This document shows positions 2,828-54,896 of a stretch of DNA of 64,000 bases, piece by piece. Position numbers and translations under genes: made by a program. The notes beneath the pieces are model-generated. The model searched no databases and was not told the origin of the DNA. It saw only the letters and a program-made list of their open reading frames with translations. The stretch lies in the NCBI GenBank assembly GCA_024103355.1, contig JAGFIU010000048.1, positions 1 to 64,000 of the forward strand. The letters run 5' to 3'. The stretch is from Bacteroidota bacterium. Lineage in GTDB: Bacteria > Bacteroidota > Bacteroidia > NS11-12g > UBA955. The stretch's first letter is position 1. Each line of letters starts with the position of its first letter.

Positions 2828-4888
2828 TTACCAAGTCCATATCAGGTTAATATAAAAATTTCTCCCCGGTCTTGGAATTCGGTTCCAATCGGAAAAAGTG
2901 GTGTAATAGGTGTCGAAGATATTTTCAACTCCTGCTTTAATATTTAGTGATTGTCTTTTTAGTTGAAAATTCTTGGAAACAGCCAAATCAAATAGAGTAT
3001 AAGGTTTTACAAACGTTTCGCCAAAGTAAGGATTGTAAGCTGTATTCCCGTCTGCACCGGTGATTTTGGCCTCTATATTGAAAGATTTTGAGGTATATCG
3101 TATTTCACTTGAATAAGTCAACGGTTGAATCAAAGGAAGATTGCCAATTTGTGCGCCTTTGCCTTTGCGATAGCTTAACCCTGCTGACCATATCCAACGC
3201 TTGTGAATTTGATATGACATTTCTAAGGCAGTATTCAACAATTGTGCGCTGCTCAACTGTTTGTAAACCCTAATACCATCGGCAACAATGGTCATGGGTG
3301 CAATACCGGTGTCAGGCAATCCTATAATATAATCTTTGATATAAAAGAATGAAGCACTGACTTTTGCAGAGAATCTGGAGTTTTTGAAATTGATTTTCCC
3401 ATTCAAATTACCCGAACTTTCGCTTTTCATTTCCGGATTTCCAATATAGTCGTATTTGTCAAAACTATTGAACAAATAGAAACCATATCCTTCTGAAACA
3501 CTTGGTGCACGCTCCCCGTATTCTGCGCCTAATGTAAAGTCAAATTTGTTTATTTCATAAATTACAATGCCTGAAAACCGCTTTAAAATTCGGTTTTTTG
3601 AATTGCTAAGATTTGGATAGAATATTTTTAAGCTATTTAAACCCAGCTCACTGTCAATCTTGTTGTTGTGAAAAGCTATTCCGGTGTTCAACATTAGTTT
3701 CAGCCTATTGGAAACAGAAAAAAAGTCTTCTAAAGACAAATCAACATAATTGGTTTTTATGTCAGGCCAAGTCAACATAAACATCGGAGGATTTGAAGTG
3801 TTTGATGGGTACATTGTCATGTTTGCAAGGGATGTGTTTTGGTGACCGCTTAAGGTAGTTTTCCAAAAATGTCTTTGATATTTACCTTGCACAAATGAAT
3901 AAAAACCGGATGTCTTGCTCCAACCCGGCATGTCCATTCGGATTGGCACATCCGAGCGTTTGGAATCATCCATTACATGTTTAACATCGTTATAATATAT
4001 TTTTGTTTTCCATAATCCAATCATCGGTGATACATGATGGCGTATGTATTCTAAAGAACCTATCAATGCTCTTGCCAAAGAAACGTCCATGGGCAATGCA
4101 GGATAGCCGATGTCGGTCGCTAAATCATAGATAATGGAAGCTTCGATTTGACTGTGTTCATTGATTTTGTAACCCACAATTGCAGAGGTATTGTATTTGG
4201 TGAACTGAGAGTTTTGAATCTCTTGATTGTGTCCCGCTTTGTAATTCCCGGCATTTCTGAATGTGAAATCAATATCAGAAAAAAACTTAGGATGTGAATA
4301 TGAAATGCCGGTTCCAATAATTTTATGCAGGTTGTTTGTTTCAATGCCCGAAAATGCACTGCCACCTAATTTTTTTTCTCCAAAACTACCTTTTCTTCTA
4401 ACCAAATCCAAGCTGCCGGCTATGGAAGAGCCGCCAAAAGAGCCGGATTGCCCGTTATGGATGGATGCTTTGGACAAGTTTGTAATTTCAACATAAGAAG
4501 TTACCGGATCCATTTTGTCTGTGCATGCACCATAAATACGCATTCCGTCAATTGTTATAACACTTCGTTCTGAACTCATACCATTGAGAAATGGTTCCCA
4601 TGCATAGGAACCTCTGCGAATCATATTGATTGATTGGTTGCTCTCAAGATATCCGTCTATTCCTGAAAGCGGCTTGTTGGATTGATCCTTAGTATTTTTT
4701 GAGGTATTGATTTGAACTTCATCCAATAGCTGATTTTGAATGGAGTCTTTGCTGTTGTTCTGACCAAAAGAAGAAAATGAAAAAATAAGGATAAACAAGG
4801 TAATGAAAAATCCTTTCTGATTTTGAATCAATAAAATCAAGGGGATATGCCATTGGCAAAAAGTGTCTATTTGTTTTTTCTGACTCAT
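2828..4888 (-). CDS. TonB-dependent receptor, copper type (OprC/NosA-like)
   Basis: Outer-membrane 22-strand barrel receptor of 686 residues. A signal peptide is visible (KGFFITLFILIFSFSSFGQ, about 26-43), then a plug domain with IDGMRIYGACTDKMDPVTSY (about 113-132). That Cys/Met-Asp-Pro plug signature is the one seen in the OprC/NosA copper receptor family. The barrel ends in an aromatic strand (FYINLIWTW). An in-frame TTG lies 12 bases upstream, but the ATG at 4888 is the better start. There is no carboxypeptidase-like N-terminal domain, so it is not a SusC protein. It is the last gene of a three-gene minus-strand operon whose middle product is a Met/His/Cys-rich lipoprotein, which supports copper as the ligand. 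Confidence 0.85.
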   Translation of the reverse strand: MSQKKQIDTFCQWHIPLILLIQNQKGFFITLFILIFSFSSFGQNNSKDSIQNQLLDEVQINTSKNTKDQSNKPLSGIDGYLESNQSINMIRRGSYAWEPFLNGMSSERSVITIDGMRIYGACTDKMDPVTSYVEITNLSKASIHNGQSGSFGGSSIAGSLDLVRRKGSFGEKKLGGSAFSGIETNNLHKIIGTGISYSHPKFFSDIDFTFRNAGNYKAGHNQEIQNSQFTKYNTSAIVGYKINEHSQIEASIIYDLATDIGYPALPMDVSLARALIGSLEYIRHHVSPMIGLWKTKIYYNDVKHVMDDSKRSDVPIRMDMPGWSKTSGFYSFVQGKYQRHFWKTTLSGHQNTSLANMTMYPSNTSNPPMFMLTWPDIKTNYVDLSLEDFFSVSNRLKLMLNTGIAFHNNKIDSELGLNSLKIFYPNLSNSKNRILKRFSGIVIYEINKFDFTLGAEYGERAPSVSEGYGFYLFNSFDKYDYIGNPEMKSESSGNLNGKINFKNSRFSAKVSASFFYIKDYIIGLPDTGIAPMTIVADGIRVYKQLSSAQLLNTALEMSYQIHKRWIWSAGLSYRKGKGAQIGNLPLIQPLTYSSEIRYTSKSFNIEAKITGADGNTAYNPYFGETFVKPYTLFDLAVSKNFQLKRQSLNIKAGVENIFDTYYTTFSDWNRIPRPGRNFYINLIWTW

Positions 4889-4937
4889 CCTATATACCAA
4901 TGTTATATCCCCTTATGTTAAATTGTGTTATTATATC

Positions 4938-5813
4938 TTAGTTAAAAACAAGTTCAAAGAAGATGCTGCTGCTTTTCACAGTGCCTTCAATTTTCTCTCC
5001 TTTGATAACGTTATTGTCCGCATCTTCTATGATAAGATTAATTTTCCAATAACCTGACATTGTAAAATTTACCTTTCCGGCATACTCACCCGAGCAACAA
5101 TCGCCTATAAGGGCTGTATTGTTAGGAGAAGTATGGTTGCCCATATCAGGCATACGCGGATCTATTTTGATGGTATATCCTCCAACCGGTTCAAAAGTGT
5201 TCATGTCTTTCATTTTATACAAAACAGCTTTCATATCATTTATTCCGATTTTGGGATTCACAGGCTCTGTCATCGCAACAACATATTTAACACTATCACT
5301 ACCCATAAATGAACTGTATGTTTTCTTTGAAGTTTGTTCTACCACAACTTTTCCGCTCATATTATATTCAACACCGTCAATGGTATAATTGAATGTAAGT
5401 TCCCAATATTCCATGTCATTACTTGCCATTTGGAACACAATGCCTGCCATGTAGGTAGCCGAGGTTCCTTGTTTTTTTGAAATTGATGAGATTGGGCATG
5501 AGTGTGACATTCCGGTCATGTGCATCATTGGCAGAATCTTTACTGTTGCATTTTGCTGAAGATTTCCATCTTTAGATTTTATTTGAAAATAAATATTGTT
5601 GTATCCGGTTTGAAGTTTCCCGTTGCTTGTATAAAGATTGATTGTATGCTTATCATTATTAAAAGTAGTGTTGAGTATTAATCCTTCTACTTCATTTTTT
5701 GGTTCGGGCAAGGGTTTTTCCTCTATTGTTTCTTTTTTACAAGAGCTTAGTAATATAGATGCACTCATGAAGATAATCATTGAGTTCAGCATCATTGATT
5801 TGATTGATTTCAT
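4938..5813 (-). CDS. Met/His/Cys-rich lipoprotein, probable copper-binding partner of the TonB receptor
   Basis: A 291-residue lipoprotein: the signal peptide ends in LLSSC with Cys25 as the lipidated residue, followed by KK. Two similar beta-sandwich halves are visible, resembling YtkA/FixH-like domains. The first carries ILPMMHMTGMSHSCP (about 92-106), a dense Met/His/Cys cluster. The second has DPRMPDMGNHTSP and GDCCSGEYAGK. Such clusters are typical of periplasmic Cu(I)/Cu(II) sites, but no family assignment is certain. The gene lies 49 bases before the copper-type receptor on the same strand, so it may pass copper to or from the receptor. Direct metal binding is an inference. Confidence 0.75.
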   Translation of the reverse strand: MKSIKSMMLNSMIIFMSASILLSSCKKETIEEKPLPEPKNEVEGLILNTTFNNDKHTINLYTSNGKLQTGYNNIYFQIKSKDGNLQQNATVKILPMMHMTGMSHSCPISSISKKQGTSATYMAGIVFQMASNDMEYWELTFNYTIDGVEYNMSGKVVVEQTSKKTYSSFMGSDSVKYVVAMTEPVNPKIGINDMKAVLYKMKDMNTFEPVGGYTIKIDPRMPDMGNHTSPNNTALIGDCCSGEYAGKVNFTMSGYWKINLIIEDADNNVIKGEKIEGTVKSSSIFFELVFN

Positions 5814-5971
5814 TTCTTAATTTTTTTTGTTTTAATTTTTTTCTAAAATGTGCTTCTAATAAGCAGGCACACGACATCATTATTTGTTGTATAGCAACTT
5901 ATTTGATTAGACACTAAATACCTGCACACTTTATTAAAAGGTATTTTGTGCCGGATTTTATAAAATATAAA
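5814..5971. other. Gap inside the copper operon with small inverted repeats
   Basis: This 158-base AT-rich gap separates the small membrane protein gene from the lipoprotein gene. It contains GTTG-N5-CAAC (5886-5898) and AAATACC-N17-GGTATTT (5916-5946). No good TAnnTTTG box faces the lipoprotein gene, so that gene probably depends on the promoter at 6369-6399. The repeats could be a weak attenuator or operator, but they are short. Confidence 0.3.
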
Positions 5972-6352
5972 TTAAGAAATTCGTGGAGGATGAAACACAG
6001 AGAATTTGATTTCAGTACATATTCCTATGCAATCAGGAATAGAGAGCGTTTGCGAATCAGAATCGTTTTGTAGCTCAAACAAAGACAAAAAGTTGAAATT
6101 ATCTGAAAATAATTGTATTTCTCTCACTTTCAGGTCAGGGAATTGTTGTTCTTGCTGCTTCTCATTTTCTTTAAGTTCATGATTCAGATAGCATTTCCCG
6201 TCACAATCAGAATCCTTATTCAATCTGTTTTCGCATAAAGTTTTGGCTATATACTCCCTTTGAATATAGAATGAAGCGATAATCCATATCTGTGAAGTGC
6301 TTTGAAGTACTACACTAATAATTAGAAGATATGTCAGAAAGTATCTTTTCAC
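5972..6352 (-). CDS. Small membrane protein with CENR...CDGKCYL Cys motif
   Basis: A 126-residue protein with one N-terminal hydrophobic segment (about 4-28) followed by AKTLCENRLNKDSDCDGKCY (about 36-55), a Cys-rich loop that would lie outside the cytoplasmic membrane. The C-terminus ends FHPPRIS. I recall similar small Bacteroidota proteins beside metal-handling genes, but they have no established function. It is the first gene of the operon and has the best promoter of the three. The three Cys in a CxnCxxxC arrangement could bind copper or form a redox pair. It has no similarity I can name to a known copper chaperone. Confidence 0.7.
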   Translation of the reverse strand: MKRYFLTYLLIISVVLQSTSQIWIIASFYIQREYIAKTLCENRLNKDSDCDGKCYLNHELKENEKQQEQQFPDLKVREIQLFSDNFNFLSLFELQNDSDSQTLSIPDCIGICTEIKFSVFHPPRIS

Positions 6353-6368
6353 TTCATTATTTCGGCAA

Positions 6369-6399
6369 CAAATTTAAATTTCGTTTTTTGTATAATCAA
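6369..6399 (-). promoter_or_regulatory. Full Bacteroidota-type promoter of the copper operon
   Basis: Read on the minus strand this is TTG (6399-6397), 20 bases, then TAAATTTG (6376-6369), matching the TTG-N17-23-TAnnTTTG consensus. The start codon of the small membrane protein is at 6352, so the leader would be only about 10 bases. Confidence 0.65.
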
Positions 6400-14008: not shown

Positions 14009-14695
14009 ATGCCAAAGCTCTCGTGGTGGAAATATCTTGCAATCGGACTCATTTTATATGCTCTAGTTGGCGGAATGTTAATCAATGTACCTACAGACGT
14101 GGGGATGTTGGATCAAACTATCCGAAACCTTTTCTATCATGTTCCTATGTGGTTTTCAATGATACTCCTTTTAATGGGATCGTGGATTTATAGTGTTTTG
14201 TATCTTAATTCACTAAAGGCTAATTATCATCGTTGGGCATACGCATTAGGCGTTGCAGGTACTTTGGCAGGTTTTTGCGGTATATTTACCGGAATGCTCT
14301 GGGCTAGTTCTACTTGGGGGACCCCATGGACGCGTGACCCAAAGTTGAACGGTGCTGCGGTTGGATTGCTTATATATGTCGCGTATTGGTTGCTTTATCG
14401 CTCTATTGCTGACCCAATTAAATCTAGAAAGATTGCTGCAATATACAATGTGTTTGTTTATCCAATTTTCATTGCTCTGATTTGGATAATTCCAAAACTT
14501 TCTGATTTTTCTATTCATCCGGGAAGTGGTGATACTGTTGGTTTTAATCAATATGACCTTAATCAAAATATGAGGTATGTTTTTTATCCGGCTATAATCG
14601 GGTGGTCCCTCTTGTTTGTTTGGGTTGCGAGTTTAAAAGTTCGCTTAGATAAAGTAGAATCAGATTCTGGAAATTCTAAAGAAAATATACTATGA
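14009..14695 (+). CDS. ccmC: Cytochrome c maturation protein CcmC (haem-handling membrane protein)
   Basis: A 228-residue membrane protein with six hydrophobic segments, which presents haem to CcmE in the periplasm. The Trp-rich periplasmic signature is degenerate: STWGTPWTRDPKLNG (about 108-122) in place of the usual WGTWWVWD. Flanking His residues are visible in LFYHVPMW (about 43-50) and SIHPGSGD (about 168-175). The stop overlaps ccmD as ATGA, so the genes are translationally coupled. CcmA and CcmB are not in this window and must be elsewhere if present. Confidence 0.88.
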   Translation: MPKLSWWKYLAIGLILYALVGGMLINVPTDVGMLDQTIRNLFYHVPMWFSMILLLMGSWIYSVLYLNSLKANYHRWAYALGVAGTLAGFCGIFTGMLWASSTWGTPWTRDPKLNGAAVGLLIYVAYWLLYRSIADPIKSRKIAAIYNVFVYPIFIALIWIIPKLSDFSIHPGSGDTVGFNQYDLNQNMRYVFYPAIIGWSLLFVWVASLKVRLDKVESDSGNSKENIL

Positions 14696-14907
14696 AAAAT
14701 ATTATCAAATATTTAATTCCCTCTGCTCTATTAATGCTTTTGTCTCAAGGACTGCATGCACAAGCAGAGTCAGGAATGTCTAATTCAAAAATCGAAGTTG
14801 TAATAGGTGTTATTGTAATTATATTCAGTGTTGTTGTTTTATATCTTATCAGGTTGGAAAAAAAAATAAATCTATTAGAGAAACGAAATAAGGAGGAGCA
14901 GTTATGA
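14692..14907 (+). CDS. ccmD: CcmD-like small membrane protein
   Basis: A 71-residue protein with a cleavable-looking N-terminal segment (LIPSALLMLLSQGLHAQA), one transmembrane helix (IEVVIGVIVIIFSVVVLYLI, about 34-53) and a charged C-terminal tail. CcmD proteins help release haem-loaded CcmE from CcmC. Sequence similarity in this family is always weak, so the call rests on size, topology and its place between ccmC and ccmE, overlapping both by four bases. Confidence 0.75.
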   Translation: MKNIIKYLIPSALLMLLSQGLHAQAESGMSNSKIEVVIGVIVIIFSVVVLYLIRLEKKINLLEKRNKEEQL

Positions 14908-15296
14908 AAATTGGGCATATCATTAGTATTATTGCTCTTGGCGTTGTTTTGGCTGTTGTTTTAAGTTTTTATGGAGACAGAAGTTACTATGTTACTTTCG
15001 AACAAGCAGAACACTATGCAGAGAAGAAATCAAAGAAAGATTACCATGTTGTTGTTAGGATTGACAAGAGCAAACCACAAGAATATGATCCCATCAAAAA
15101 CCCTGACTATTTTGCATTTTATGCCTCAGACACTTTGGGGGTAGAGCGTAAGATCGTTTATAATGGCAGTAAGCCTACCGACCTTGACAGAACTGATAAG
15201 ATTGTTGTGATTGGCAAAGCACAAGAGGATTATTTTCTTGCTGTTGATATTCTTAAAAAGTGCCCATCAAAATATGAAGCTGAAGGGATAAAATAA
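14904..15296 (+). CDS. ccmE: Cytochrome c maturation haem chaperone CcmE, Cys-type
   Basis: A 130-residue periplasmic haem chaperone anchored by one N-terminal helix (about 5-22), followed by an OB-fold domain. In most proteobacteria the haem-binding motif is HxxxY; here the matching position reads KKCPSKYE, giving CxxxY (Cys120, Tyr124). This is the Cys-type variant known from some sulfate reducers and archaea. The OB fold is recognisable from DYFAFYASDTLGVERKIVY and DKIVVIGKA. It lies between ccmD and ccmF in one operon. Confidence 0.9.
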   Translation: MKIGHIISIIALGVVLAVVLSFYGDRSYYVTFEQAEHYAEKKSKKDYHVVVRIDKSKPQEYDPIKNPDYFAFYASDTLGVERKIVYNGSKPTDLDRTDKIVVIGKAQEDYFLAVDILKKCPSKYEAEGIK

Positions 15297-15308
15297 TATT
15301 TAGGTAAG

Positions 15309-17897
15309 ATGGAAAAAGTTACGTTTGTTGGAGAACATTTATTATTTGGTAATTTAGGAAATATCGCTGTTGTATGCTCATTTATCTTTTCAATTTTAGC
15401 ATTTGTTGGGTACTATTTTAAAGAAAAATATAATGATGAGTCTTGGGGTAAGATTGGAAAGATATCCTTGTGGATTCACTCTGCTTCTGTATTAGCAATT
15501 TTTGTTATTTTATATTGGCTTATTCATGGGCACTATTATGAATATCAATATGTTTGGAAACATTCCTCAAATACACTCCCAAGTTATTTTATGATTTCTT
15601 GTTTCTGGGAAGGACAAGAGGGTAGTTTTCTACTCTGGATGTTTTGGCATGTAATGCTTTCACTGATTATTTATTTTCGTCCAACCAAACTTAGCTATGG
15701 GGCTATTGCCGTAATTATGCTTGCACAGGCAGTTCTATCATCCATGCTGTTGGGGATCAACTTTCTTGGGATGAAAATAGGCAGCAGTCCATTTGCCTTG
15801 CTTAGAGATGTGCAACCGGAGATTCTTGATATTCCAAGGCTTCAGATGATAGGAAAAGCAAATTATTTATCGTTGATTGAAGATGGCTCAGGGTTGAATC
15901 CACTGCTACAGAATTATTGGATGGTTATTCATCCGCCTACTCTGTTTCTTGGTTTTGCTGCAATGGTAGTCCCATTTGCATACATGATTTCTGCATTTTG
16001 GAAGAGAGACCATAGCTCTTGGATTAGACCCATGATTCCATGGGCTTTATTTTCAGTTATGATTTTGGGTGCAGGGATTATTATGGGGGCATTTTGGGCA
16101 TATGAATCATTGAGTTTTGGAGGATATTGGGCATGGGATCCGGTCGAAAATGCATCTTTAATGCCTTGGATTCTGATGGTCGCAGTTGTACATCTTTTGC
16201 TAATTCTTAAAAATTCCGGTCAGTACAAAGTGCTGACGATCATGTTGATATGCTTTTCCTTTTTCCTTGTTTTGTATGCAACATTCCTTACCAGGAGTGG
16301 TGTGTTGGGAGAAGCTAGCGTACACTCTTTTACGGATTTAGGGTTGTCAGGACAATTGTTATTGTTCATTTTTATGTTTATTTTCCTAGCTGTTTATGCT
16401 TCAATTAATAATAAAAACAGGGCAATTATCTTCTTAAGTCTATGCGTATTGCTTATTGGGTTTAACTTTCTATCAATAAAATATCACTGGCTTTCGACTC
16501 CGGTTATGAATTCTTTTAACTTAGTTATGCTCCTCGGATTTATCTATTGGTGGGCAAAGGAGTTAATGAATGTTTATCCGGCTAAGAAAGTTGATGAAAA
16601 TATTTGGAGTAGAGAGTTCTGGATGTTTATTGGTTCACTTGTATTGTTGTTGTCGGCATTTCAAATCATATTCTATACGTCTGCACCTGTATTTAATAAA
16701 CTCTTCAACTTGAATCTTGCTGTTAATAAACCTGAATTCTATAACAAATTTCAATTACCATTTGTTATTGTCATTGCACTCCTTTCGGGGTTGGGGCAAT
16801 TTTTTAATTACAGATATTCAGATAAAAAAGTCTTCTGGAAAAATCAACTTATTCCTATAGTGGCTTCTTTGATTCTTGGAGTGGTATTAATCCTCTCATG
16901 GAAAATATATCATTTCAATTTTGCACTCATGCTTATTCTCTCTGTATATTCTGTAGTTGCTAATACTATCTATCTATTTAAAAACTTAAGAGGAAAACTC
17001 AAATTGGGAGGAGCATCAATTGCACATGCCGGATTTGGTTTAATGATGATTGGGGTGTTGGCTTCTTCAATCAATAAAGAGGTTTTAACTCATAATAATA
17101 TTAATAGAGATTTTGTGGATGGAAGTACCGGAGAAAAAGCTCAAGCTTTTAATCGAGAAAATATGTTGTTGAGAAGAGGAGATACAGTTCGTATTGCAAA
17201 CTATCTCGTTTACTATGACACTATCTCAGATATACCACCCGATAAATACTTTCATGTCCATTGGTTGAGAACCAATGAAAGAGGTGAAATAGTTGAAAAA
17301 TTTACCCTCAAACCCAACGCACAGAATAATCCCAAGATGGGAGGGTTGATTTCAAGCCCTGATACCAGACACTATCTCAGCCATGATATTTATACCCATG
17401 TAAACCATGAAAGCGGCTTAGAGACAGTCGAAGATTTTAAGAATTTCAAAAAAGATACCGTGCGTGTAGGGCAATATTTTACAACAACTTCAGGAACTAT
17501 AAGAGTAAAAGTTGCAGATATTGAAAATTTTAAAAGCGATGATGGGAAAAAAGTAAGACTGATTGCTAATCTTGAAGTGCAATCCTTAGGAAAAGTCCAA
17601 ACAATTCCTGCAAGCATGATAATTAATATGGAAACCAATCAAATTGAATATGAGGATGCACAGTCTAATGAAGCCGGATTCTTAGGAAGGCTTTTGTCTA
17701 TCATCCCATCTGAGAATATGGAATTGGTGATTACAACTGCAGAGCGAAAACCGATTTTTGATTATATCATTATGAAAGCGGTTAAATTCCCATGGGTTAA
17801 TCTACTTTGGAGCGGAACAATTATTCTCACGATTGGTTTCTCATTGAGCATTGCTCAAAGAATTAAAGAAATGAGAAAGTGGAACCCAAGCACTTAA
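15309..17897 (+). CDS. ccmF: Cytochrome c maturation protein CcmF/CcsA-type haem lyase
   Basis: An 862-residue polytopic membrane protein that attaches haem to apocytochrome c. The WWD-domain signature is GGYWAWDPVENASLMPW (271-287), preceded by FWEGQEGSFLLW (99-110) and a conserved periplasmic His in IHPPTLFLG (207-215). At least 14 hydrophobic segments are visible. The protein is longer than a typical CcmF (about 650), because a soluble segment of about 230 residues (about 600-825) sits before the last helix; such periplasmic domains also occur in CcmF but this one is large. It overlaps the next gene by 19 bases. Confidence 0.92.
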   Translation: MEKVTFVGEHLLFGNLGNIAVVCSFIFSILAFVGYYFKEKYNDESWGKIGKISLWIHSASVLAIFVILYWLIHGHYYEYQYVWKHSSNTLPSYFMISCFWEGQEGSFLLWMFWHVMLSLIIYFRPTKLSYGAIAVIMLAQAVLSSMLLGINFLGMKIGSSPFALLRDVQPEILDIPRLQMIGKANYLSLIEDGSGLNPLLQNYWMVIHPPTLFLGFAAMVVPFAYMISAFWKRDHSSWIRPMIPWALFSVMILGAGIIMGAFWAYESLSFGGYWAWDPVENASLMPWILMVAVVHLLLILKNSGQYKVLTIMLICFSFFLVLYATFLTRSGVLGEASVHSFTDLGLSGQLLLFIFMFIFLAVYASINNKNRAIIFLSLCVLLIGFNFLSIKYHWLSTPVMNSFNLVMLLGFIYWWAKELMNVYPAKKVDENIWSREFWMFIGSLVLLLSAFQIIFYTSAPVFNKLFNLNLAVNKPEFYNKFQLPFVIVIALLSGLGQFFNYRYSDKKVFWKNQLIPIVASLILGVVLILSWKIYHFNFALMLILSVYSVVANTIYLFKNLRGKLKLGGASIAHAGFGLMMIGVLASSINKEVLTHNNINRDFVDGSTGEKAQAFNRENMLLRRGDTVRIANYLVYYDTISDIPPDKYFHVHWLRTNERGEIVEKFTLKPNAQNNPKMGGLISSPDTRHYLSHDIYTHVNHESGLETVEDFKNFKKDTVRVGQYFTTTSGTIRVKVADIENFKSDDGKKVRLIANLEVQSLGKVQTIPASMIINMETNQIEYEDAQSNEAGFLGRLLSIIPSENMELVITTAERKPIFDYIIMKAVKFPWVNLLWSGTIILTIGFSLSIAQRIKEMRKWNPST

Positions 17898-53658: not shown

Positions 53659-54342
53659 ATGAGTGATACACCCAAAAAAAATACCTCCTCCTTGGTTACG
53701 ATACTCTTGATTACTTTGCTAATTGTTGCACCCATAGTGTGGATAGTAATTTTTAAGACAGGGAGGCACCTTACCGAAAAATTGCCAATCTTGTTTGAAA
53801 GAACCGTAGATGCTAATGGTGATACTATATATCATACTATTGATGACTTTGAATTTACAAATCAATTAGGTGAAAAAATTACCAAGCAGAGTATTAAAGG
53901 TAAAATAGCCCTAGTCAATTTCTTTTTTGCAAGTTGTCATGATGTTTGTCCTGAGATGAATCGAAATCTTCAAGAGGTGTATAAAGAATTTCTTAAAGAT
54001 GACAACGTAATATTTTTGTCACATTCTGTTGACCCTGAACATGACTCAGTTCCCGTCTTGTTTGAATACAGCAAAAGATTTGGTGCGGAAGCGCCTAAAT
54101 GGAACTTTTTGACCGGTTCAAAGGAAAAAATTTATGATATAGCTGAAGTATCATATAAGTTATTAGCGAATGAAGATAGAGAAAACAATAGTTTCTTTCA
54201 TAGTGAAAATATTGTTTTAGTTGATAAAGAAGGTAGAATTAGGGGAATTTTTCCGGGAAGACGAGGAATGGCTAAAGATGGAATACCTGCAATTATTGAT
54301 GCTGTGAGAGCATTAGAATATGAATACAAACAACAACAATAA
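53659..54342 (+). CDS. SCO1/SenC copper-delivery protein
   Basis: A 227-residue membrane-anchored thioredoxin-fold protein that loads copper into the CuA site of cytochrome c oxidase or handles related thiols. One N-terminal helix lies at about 12-32. The copper ligands are Cys93 and Cys97 in CHDVC and His181 in FFHSENIVLVD. The fold segment FEFTNQLGEKIT precedes them. It overlaps the DUF420 gene by one base (TAATG). Oxidase subunit genes are not in the window. Confidence 0.92.
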   Translation: MSDTPKKNTSSLVTILLITLLIVAPIVWIVIFKTGRHLTEKLPILFERTVDANGDTIYHTIDDFEFTNQLGEKITKQSIKGKIALVNFFFASCHDVCPEMNRNLQEVYKEFLKDDNVIFLSHSVDPEHDSVPVLFEYSKRFGAEAPKWNFLTGSKEKIYDIAEVSYKLLANEDRENNSFFHSENIVLVDKEGRIRGIFPGRRGMAKDGIPAIIDAVRALEYEYKQQQ

Positions 54343-54896
54343 TGAAAGAGATAACATTCAAAAGAATCATTATCGTATTGTCAGTTGTTCTTCCTCTTAT
54401 GGTATTTATGCTATTTAGAATAAAAATTGATGGCTATAATACTAACTTCCTTCCTCCAATCTATGCCACAACCAATGCAATTACAGCGATCCTGCTTGTT
54501 GCAGCACTTTTTGCAGTCAAAAGACGTAAAATTGAATTACACGAAAGACTTATAAAGATTTGCCTTGGGTTATCTGTCCTTTTCATTGTGCTATATGCAA
54601 TTCGTCACATGACTGCAACTGAAGTACGTTATGGTGATACAAATGGAGATGGATTTTTGTCTGAAACTGAATTATTTAATGTGAGAGTTACACGATATAT
54701 CTACTACTTTATTCTGATTTCCCATATAATGCTTTCTGTGATAGTAATTCCTTTCGTTTTATTTGCATTTATGAGAGGAATGCTCAATCAAATTGAAAAG
54801 CATAAAAAAATTGTCCGATTTGCATTCCCAATTTGGTTATATGTTGCTGTTTCGGGAGCATTGGTTTATTTAATGATTTCACCTTATTATATCTAA
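54342..54896 (+). CDS. DUF420 membrane protein (CtaM-like)
   Basis: A 184-residue membrane protein with four to five helices. DUF420 proteins accompany cytochrome oxidase genes; the Bacillus homologue CtaM is needed for haem-copper oxidase activity. Characteristic residues are HERLIKICLG (about 68-77) and YAIRHMTATEVRYG (about 86-99). Coupled to the SCO gene by a one-base overlap and followed by the small CxxC protein after 4 bases, which strengthens the oxidase-assembly role. Confidence 0.87.
   Translation: MKEITFKRIIIVLSVVLPLMVFMLFRIKIDGYNTNFLPPIYATTNAITAILLVAALFAVKRRKIELHERLIKICLGLSVLFIVLYAIRHMTATEVRYGDTNGDGFLSETELFNVRVTRYIYYFILISHIMLSVIVIPFVLFAFMRGMLNQIEKHKKIVRFAFPIWLYVAVSGALVYLMISPYYI

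Follow-up and report, generated by a model that had tools for sequence, protein, structure and literature searches.

Three genes on the minus strand (6399-2828) of contig JAGFIU010000048.1 from a Bacteroidota bacterium, of which we analyzed 64,000 nt (the window), form a copper-import operon that is conserved in Bacteroidota and that probably carries its own nascent-chain copper sensor as its first gene. A small protein gene is followed by a lipoprotein gene and a TonB receptor gene. The single promoter and the three genes described in the initial annotation, which named no strand, are all present, as are MMHMTGMSHSCP and GDCCSG in the lipoprotein and CTDKMDPVTSYVE in the receptor plug. That annotation had passed over the way in which the small protein ends (FHPPRIS-stop) and the constant first position of its gene. 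Our proposal is built from gene order, conservation, co-occurrence, copper-site residues, predicted fold, and the anatomy of the small protein (hereafter, the leader); from these we infer arrest, copper binding, the direction of the response, surface location, and copper hand-over. The features of the locus are as follows.

6369..6399, minus strand: promoter-like element TTG-N20-TAAATTTG of the Bacteroidota -33/-7 type, enriched upstream of homologous small genes
5972..6352, minus strand: leader protein, 126 aa, GTG start, with N-terminal hydrophobic helix, Cys box, and C-terminal HPP; proposed nascent-chain copper sensor, an upstream open reading frame (uORF) of CruR/CutF-like type
6191..6235, minus strand: Cys box of the leader, C40-x9-C50-x-G-x-C54, proposed copper sensor; invariant in 44 diverse sequences
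5984..5992, minus strand: H121-P122-P123, three residues ahead of the stop, proposed arrest motif; P122 and P123 invariant
5814..5971, minus strand: 158-nt gap between the leader and lipoprotein genes, where Rho-dependent or other attenuation is proposed to act (weak C>G excess; fold score)
4938..5813, minus strand: lipoprotein, 291 aa, with two YtkA/CrdA-like Ig domains (Pfam YtkA, AlphaFold2, CrdA fold match)
2828..4900, minus strand: OprC/NosA-like TonB-dependent copper receptor, 690 aa (Pfam, TIGR01778, OprC alignment, conservation)

Generic scans for sigma-70 promoters and terminators at the locus returned nothing exceeding shuffled sequence, as expected for this phylum. The -33/-7 element was found upstream of 14 of 73 homologous small genes, compared with 1.4% of random windows from the same loci. 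A single transcript presumably spans all three genes.

Anatomy and position of the leader

A scan of bacterial genomes using the lipoprotein profile alone returned 80 loci, from Bacteroidota and some Ignavibacteria. The co-occurrence of the three families, which the initial annotation had put forward for a gene-neighborhood check, held: the receptor gene adjoins the lipoprotein gene in 79 of the 80 loci, and a small gene lies upstream in about 75. The genes occur in two orders, leader-lipoprotein-receptor and leader-receptor-lipoprotein, and the leader leads both.

Across 44 diverse leader sequences, the only invariant residues are C40, C50, G52, and C54 of the Cys box and P122 and P123 near the C terminus. 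The distance between box and Pro-Pro is 63 to 71 residues (median 67) in 140 pooled sequences, and the stretch between them is poorly conserved. Pro-Pro lies 1 to 8 residues from the stop in 137 of these 140; as background, it falls within the last nine residues of 15/1187 proteins. All 77 leaders that were found by position and Cys motif alone have Pro-Pro near the stop, and because the tail was not used to find them this is an independent finding; for a further 62, retrieved with a profile of the whole protein, tail included, the presence of Pro-Pro is circular. The ratio of nonsynonymous to synonymous substitution rates (dN/dS) is 0.14 to 0.33, with the tightest constraint in the Cys box, which indicates that the leader ORF is translated. 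AlphaFold2 predicted an N-terminal helix (residues 2-38) and little else.

Copper-sensing uORFs are already known as a kind. CruR, the copper-responsive uORF of Bordetella, places a CXXC sensor 45 residues from a C-terminal RAPP arrest motif and heads a TonB-dependent receptor (TBDR) operon (PMC9426467); the RAPP arrest has been demonstrated in vitro (PMC12992588). CutF of Rhodobacter capsulatus combines CxxxC with a proline-rich end, and its response to copper is opposite in sign to that of CruR (PMC9973294). The window operon resembles CruR-BfrG(CrtA)-BP2921 of Bordetella pertussis (PMC9426467, PMC12914433) in having three genes with the TBDR downstream, and in opening with a small exported-type protein whose Cys motif stands at a fixed distance from a terminal Pro-Pro just before the stop. 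The CruR family also heads Sco, PCuAC, MbnPH, and PepSY_TM operons, and the neighbors of the window family are almost identical. The window leader differs in lacking detectable homology to DUF2946 (PF11162); membership in that family was rejected, there being no match in its own genome or among 44 members and an hhalign probability of 0.6%. Its family has C-x9-C-x-G-x-C rather than CXXC, HPP, RPP, or KPP rather than RAPP, and a spacing of about 67 rather than 45 residues. A YtkA lipoprotein takes the place of the PepSY_TM protein, and the receptor is OprC-like.

The window leader also resembles CutF-like proteins as delimited in the survey of that group (PMC9973294): it has 126 aa (survey, <150), Pro-Pro three residues from the stop (within the last 15), CDGKC as CxxxC, and a same-strand gene 158 nt on (<1000 nt). 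It differs from CutF in that no conserved stem-loop was found over the next start and no multicopper oxidase lies downstream. The in silico list of the survey includes many Bacteroidota proteins, and the window family may be among them; the main text itself does not describe the family, its spacing, or its operon. A 2025 EMBO J survey reported RAPP/RGPP uORFs ahead of copper-related genes to be absent from Bacteroidota (PMC12992588). Because the putative arrest motif of the window family is different, searches for RAPP/RGPP would miss this common family, which we found in 142 of the 345 Bacteroidota genomes sampled (the lipoprotein in 51). The earlier remark that the small protein has no described role is correct for the family by database name, since none of the Pfam and NCBIfam models covers it and no description was found in the literature on MbnP/MbnH or on copper uORFs in Bacteroidota, but it does not extend to the class, which CruR and CutF-like proteins represent (PMC9426467, PMC9973294). 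New here are the anatomy and spacing of the leader family, its link to an OprC-type receptor with a CrdA-like lipoprotein, the fact that it stays first in both gene orders, and its exchange for unrelated leaders in some lineages. Copper uptake by Gram-negative bacteria and the regulation of copper import are little known.

Leader replacement was seen in two forms. In loci L211 to L214, the lipoprotein-receptor pair is headed by a second leader family with a WN..GW motif, several Cys and His residues, and a terminal RPP-stop, at the following positions.

L211: 4242-4670, minus strand, WN..GW/RPP leader
L212: 2234-2653, WN..GW/RPP leader
L213: 2411-2800, WN..GW/RPP leader
L214: 2331-2798, WN..GW/RPP leader

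In L206 and L215, DUF2946-type leaders ending in RGPP head a longer operon with MbnP-like, MbnH-like, YtkA lipoprotein, and OprC-like receptor genes. Profile comparison of these leaders with the window family revealed no relation beyond the terminal PP. Different sequences of the same design in the same place strongly favor a cis-acting role for the leader and disfavor a shared catalytic or carrier role.

The receptor and its lipoprotein partner

In profile searches the receptor matched the Pfam Plug and barrel models. Against TIGR01778 (TonB-copper) it scored 126.2 bits, below the equivalog cut-off of 472.45; judged by sequence, it is an OprC-like receptor that is not filed as a TIGR01778 equivalog. 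The closest solved structure by sequence is Pseudomonas OprC (1e-17), whose principal copper site is CxxxM-HxM (PMC8610252). This site is complete in the window receptor.

4511..4525, minus strand: CxxxM of the receptor plug, C126-T-D-K-M130, aligned with OprC C143/M147; invariant
3971..3979, minus strand: HxM of the receptor barrel, H308-V-M310, aligned with OprC H323/M325; invariant

In addition to these four ligands, M271, M322, and M324 align with the OprC silver ligands M286, M339, and M341 of the methionine track, so that three of the five silver-site methionines are matched and the remaining two ligands are not aligned. All seven receptor residues are invariant in 31 relatives. The OprC/NosA-like identity that had been read from the plug signature is thereby borne out. 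Likeness to OprC/NosA extends to gene context, as the operon of relatives adjoins nos genes, fitting the role of NosA; in contrast, the window receptor lies far below the TIGR01778 cut-off and is accompanied by a lipoprotein and a leader peptide, partners not known for OprC. A Bacteroidota receptor with the OprC motif is already known from Bizionia (PMC11213822).

The lipoprotein matched Pfam YtkA (PF13115) over two stretches (41.2 bits, gathering threshold 25.9; 2.7e-10), and AlphaFold2 predicted a confident two-domain beta structure (predicted local distance difference test score, pLDDT, 93.3). The model of the first domain superposes on Helicobacter pylori CrdA (9ll4) with Z 13.6 and a root-mean-square deviation of 2.2 over 103 residues, whereas the unrelated structures ranked after CrdA in the same comparison have Z <10. 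Foldseek matches were mostly generic Ig-like proteins, among which CrdA alone stood out, and a profile search reaches CrdA through the second domain as well (2.6e-6). Both domains retain a Pro/Met/His motif, invariant in 45 sequences, and a Trp.

5493..5531, minus strand: proposed metal motif of domain 1, P95-MM-H-M99...H104-S-C-P107; P95, M97, M99, H104, and P107 invariant
5118..5159, minus strand: proposed metal motif of domain 2, P219-R-M221-P-D-M224-G-N-H227-T-S229-P230-N-N232; P219, M221, M224, H227, S229, P230, and N232 invariant

The YtkA match, the CrdA-like predicted fold, and the invariant Met/His motifs agree with the initial suggestion that the lipoprotein binds copper. It shares with CrdA (PDB 9ll2/9ll4, the latter silver-bound) the Ig-like copper/silver-binding fold and the motifs P-x-M-P-x-M and Y..K..L.M.G.W. 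CrdA is a single domain serving copper resistance, whereas the window lipoprotein has two domains and is encoded beside an importer.

An acidic stretch after the lipid cysteine is the lipoprotein export signal of surface lipoproteins (PMC5080379). At positions +2 to +6 after this cysteine the family averages 2.20 acidic residues, compared with 0.73 in control lipoproteins from the same loci, none of which has three or more. This composition suggests that the lipoprotein is probably on the cell surface, although the window protein itself has only a weak signal; OprC-type receptors would gain a probable copper-collecting surface partner. The pairing of a TBDR gene with a lipoprotein whose family carries a likely export signal parallels SusC/SusD and BtuB/BtuG of Bacteroidota; the copper operon differs in its cargo and in a lipoprotein fold unrelated to SusD.

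Proposed mechanism and competing explanations

In the mechanism that we propose, the first gene would yield a short membrane-targeted leader peptide. At low copper, the ribosome would pause at HPP, three residues ahead of the stop, and the paused ribosome would hold the lipoprotein and receptor genes on. Copper bound by the three-Cys box, which lies some 67 residues nearer the N terminus of the nascent chain, would end the pause, and downstream expression would drop; as with CruR, the probable route is Rho-dependent termination between the genes. The surface lipoprotein would collect copper at its two Met/His sites and hand it to the methionine track and CxxxM-HxM site of the receptor, and TonB would drive it into the periplasm, for haem-copper oxidases in this organism and nitrous oxide (N2O) reductase in relatives. 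For CutF, the tunnel of the ribosome is estimated to hold about 30 residues, with about 17 more needed to span the membrane (PMC9973294); by these estimates, a 67-residue tether would leave the Cys box on the periplasmic side, immediately beyond SecYEG, a geometry that would favor sensing of periplasmic copper. A broader proposal, which we hold tentatively and consider somewhat less likely to be right than wrong, is that a widespread family of nascent-chain copper sensors, without sequence relation to DUF2946, belongs to the Bacteroidota themselves. In this view the fixed tether would bring the Cys box to the mouth of SecYEG on the periplasmic side at the very moment when HPP is in the ribosome, and periplasmic copper would directly gate translation; at least three unrelated leader families would have converged on this design ahead of one copper-receptor/lipoprotein pair.

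Several observations weigh against a copper-sensing leader that acts in this manner. Stalling is read from the design of the leader, which is not recognizably homologous to DUF2946/CruR and ends in HPP rather than RAPP. The sign of the copper response is uncertain because CutF and CruR respond in opposite directions. Purifying selection extends to the middle of the leader, as it would in a stable protein. The export signal of the window lipoprotein itself, CKKETIEE, is weak, and a few loci (L040, L078) hold the lipoprotein-receptor pair with no leader found. Attenuation is the least supported step, since the intergenic region has neither a clear Rho site nor a conserved RNA fold. Rho is present in the window genome; a Rho site should show an excess of C over G, but the one seen is weak and local (6038-5935), and we did not take this candidate bubble as proof. 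The intergenic fold has z -3.15 in the window; the sister genome folds differently there, with z -1.73, and 13 Aequorivita-group loci share no conserved fold.

The purifying selection over the whole ORF would suit a working membrane-anchored chaperone that uses its Cys box to receive copper from the receptor on the periplasmic side and pass it on, as would the three conserved cysteines, the predicted membrane helix, and the strict co-occurrence with the pair. This possibility, akin to the copper relay assigned to the small protein in the initial annotation, appears unlikely to us: it leaves unexplained the invariant Pro-Pro within 1 to 8 residues of the stop, the fixed 63- to 71-residue spacing across a poorly conserved stretch, the invariant first position at the head of many different copper operons, and the exchange for unrelated leaders of the same design, and AlphaFold2 shows one helix with no further fold. 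The invariant features, first position, varied copper operons, and leader swaps fit an arrest uORF instead.

A leader that arrests ribosomes could also act in the manner of CutF rather than CruR, copper prolonging the pause and raising downstream translation, or regulation could proceed by translational coupling. The CxxxC motif, intergenic gaps of mostly about 35 to 125 nt, and a window gap that folds better than shuffles are in keeping with this. However, comparison of the window, the sister genome, and the 13 relatives found no conserved stem-loop of the CutF type, which would mask the next ribosome-binding site. Greater uptake when copper is plentiful would make little physiological sense for a receptor operon, and OprC and BfrG are copper-repressed; we give this alternative about the same low weight as the chaperone, if marginally more. 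Least probable, and quite improbable in our estimate, is a cargo of zinc, a metallophore, or another metal complex instead of ionic copper. TBDR specificity is easily misjudged from sequence, and the TIGR01778 score is low, but all four OprC copper ligands are invariant, as are three methionines of the silver site, the lipoprotein is CrdA-like, and the operon or leader family occurs in nos, SCO, PCuAC, and MbnP contexts.

Genomic distribution and respiratory context

A nos cluster (NosZ, NosL, NosD, NosF, NosY) adjoins the operon in 15 to 19 of the 80 loci, linking the pair in many relatives to N2O reductase, a copper-dependent enzyme that matters for climate. In L209 and L210, from another lineage, the lipoprotein-receptor pair lies inside a nos operon (NosZ side genes, NosL, NosD, NosF) and has no leader. 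A nos link in the window organism was rejected, as its genome lacks NosZ and the nos search gave only weak, cupredoxin-level matches. The genome encodes five COX1-family proteins, including cbb3 and aa3 types, and to that extent the initial suggestion that the operon may feed a haem-copper oxidase stands.

That suggestion had pointed to the SCO cluster of the window. At 53659-54896 (plus strand), a gene for an SCO-like protein (FFASCHDVCPEMN) is followed by one for a small membrane protein, with no Cys/PP leader directly ahead; neither gene has an NCBIfam match. Together they may work for the aa3-type oxidase. Judged by eye, 14009-17897 (plus strand) holds genes for cytochrome c maturation, CcmC/CcsA-like and CcmF-like, which fit a respiratory need for haem and copper.

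In 60 further regions, the leader gene heads operons for MbnP, MbnH-like di-haem proteins, SCO, PCuAC, PepSY_TM, superoxide dismutase, and other TonB receptors. Clusters L134 and L139 each contain two tandem leaders, the first before SCO and superoxide dismutase-like genes and the next before MbnP-MbnH, which suggests separate control points along one cluster. In L137, L142, L149, L162, and L183, the gene after the leader and a TonB receptor encodes a BNR-repeat protein that contains the motif CQCCRTN.

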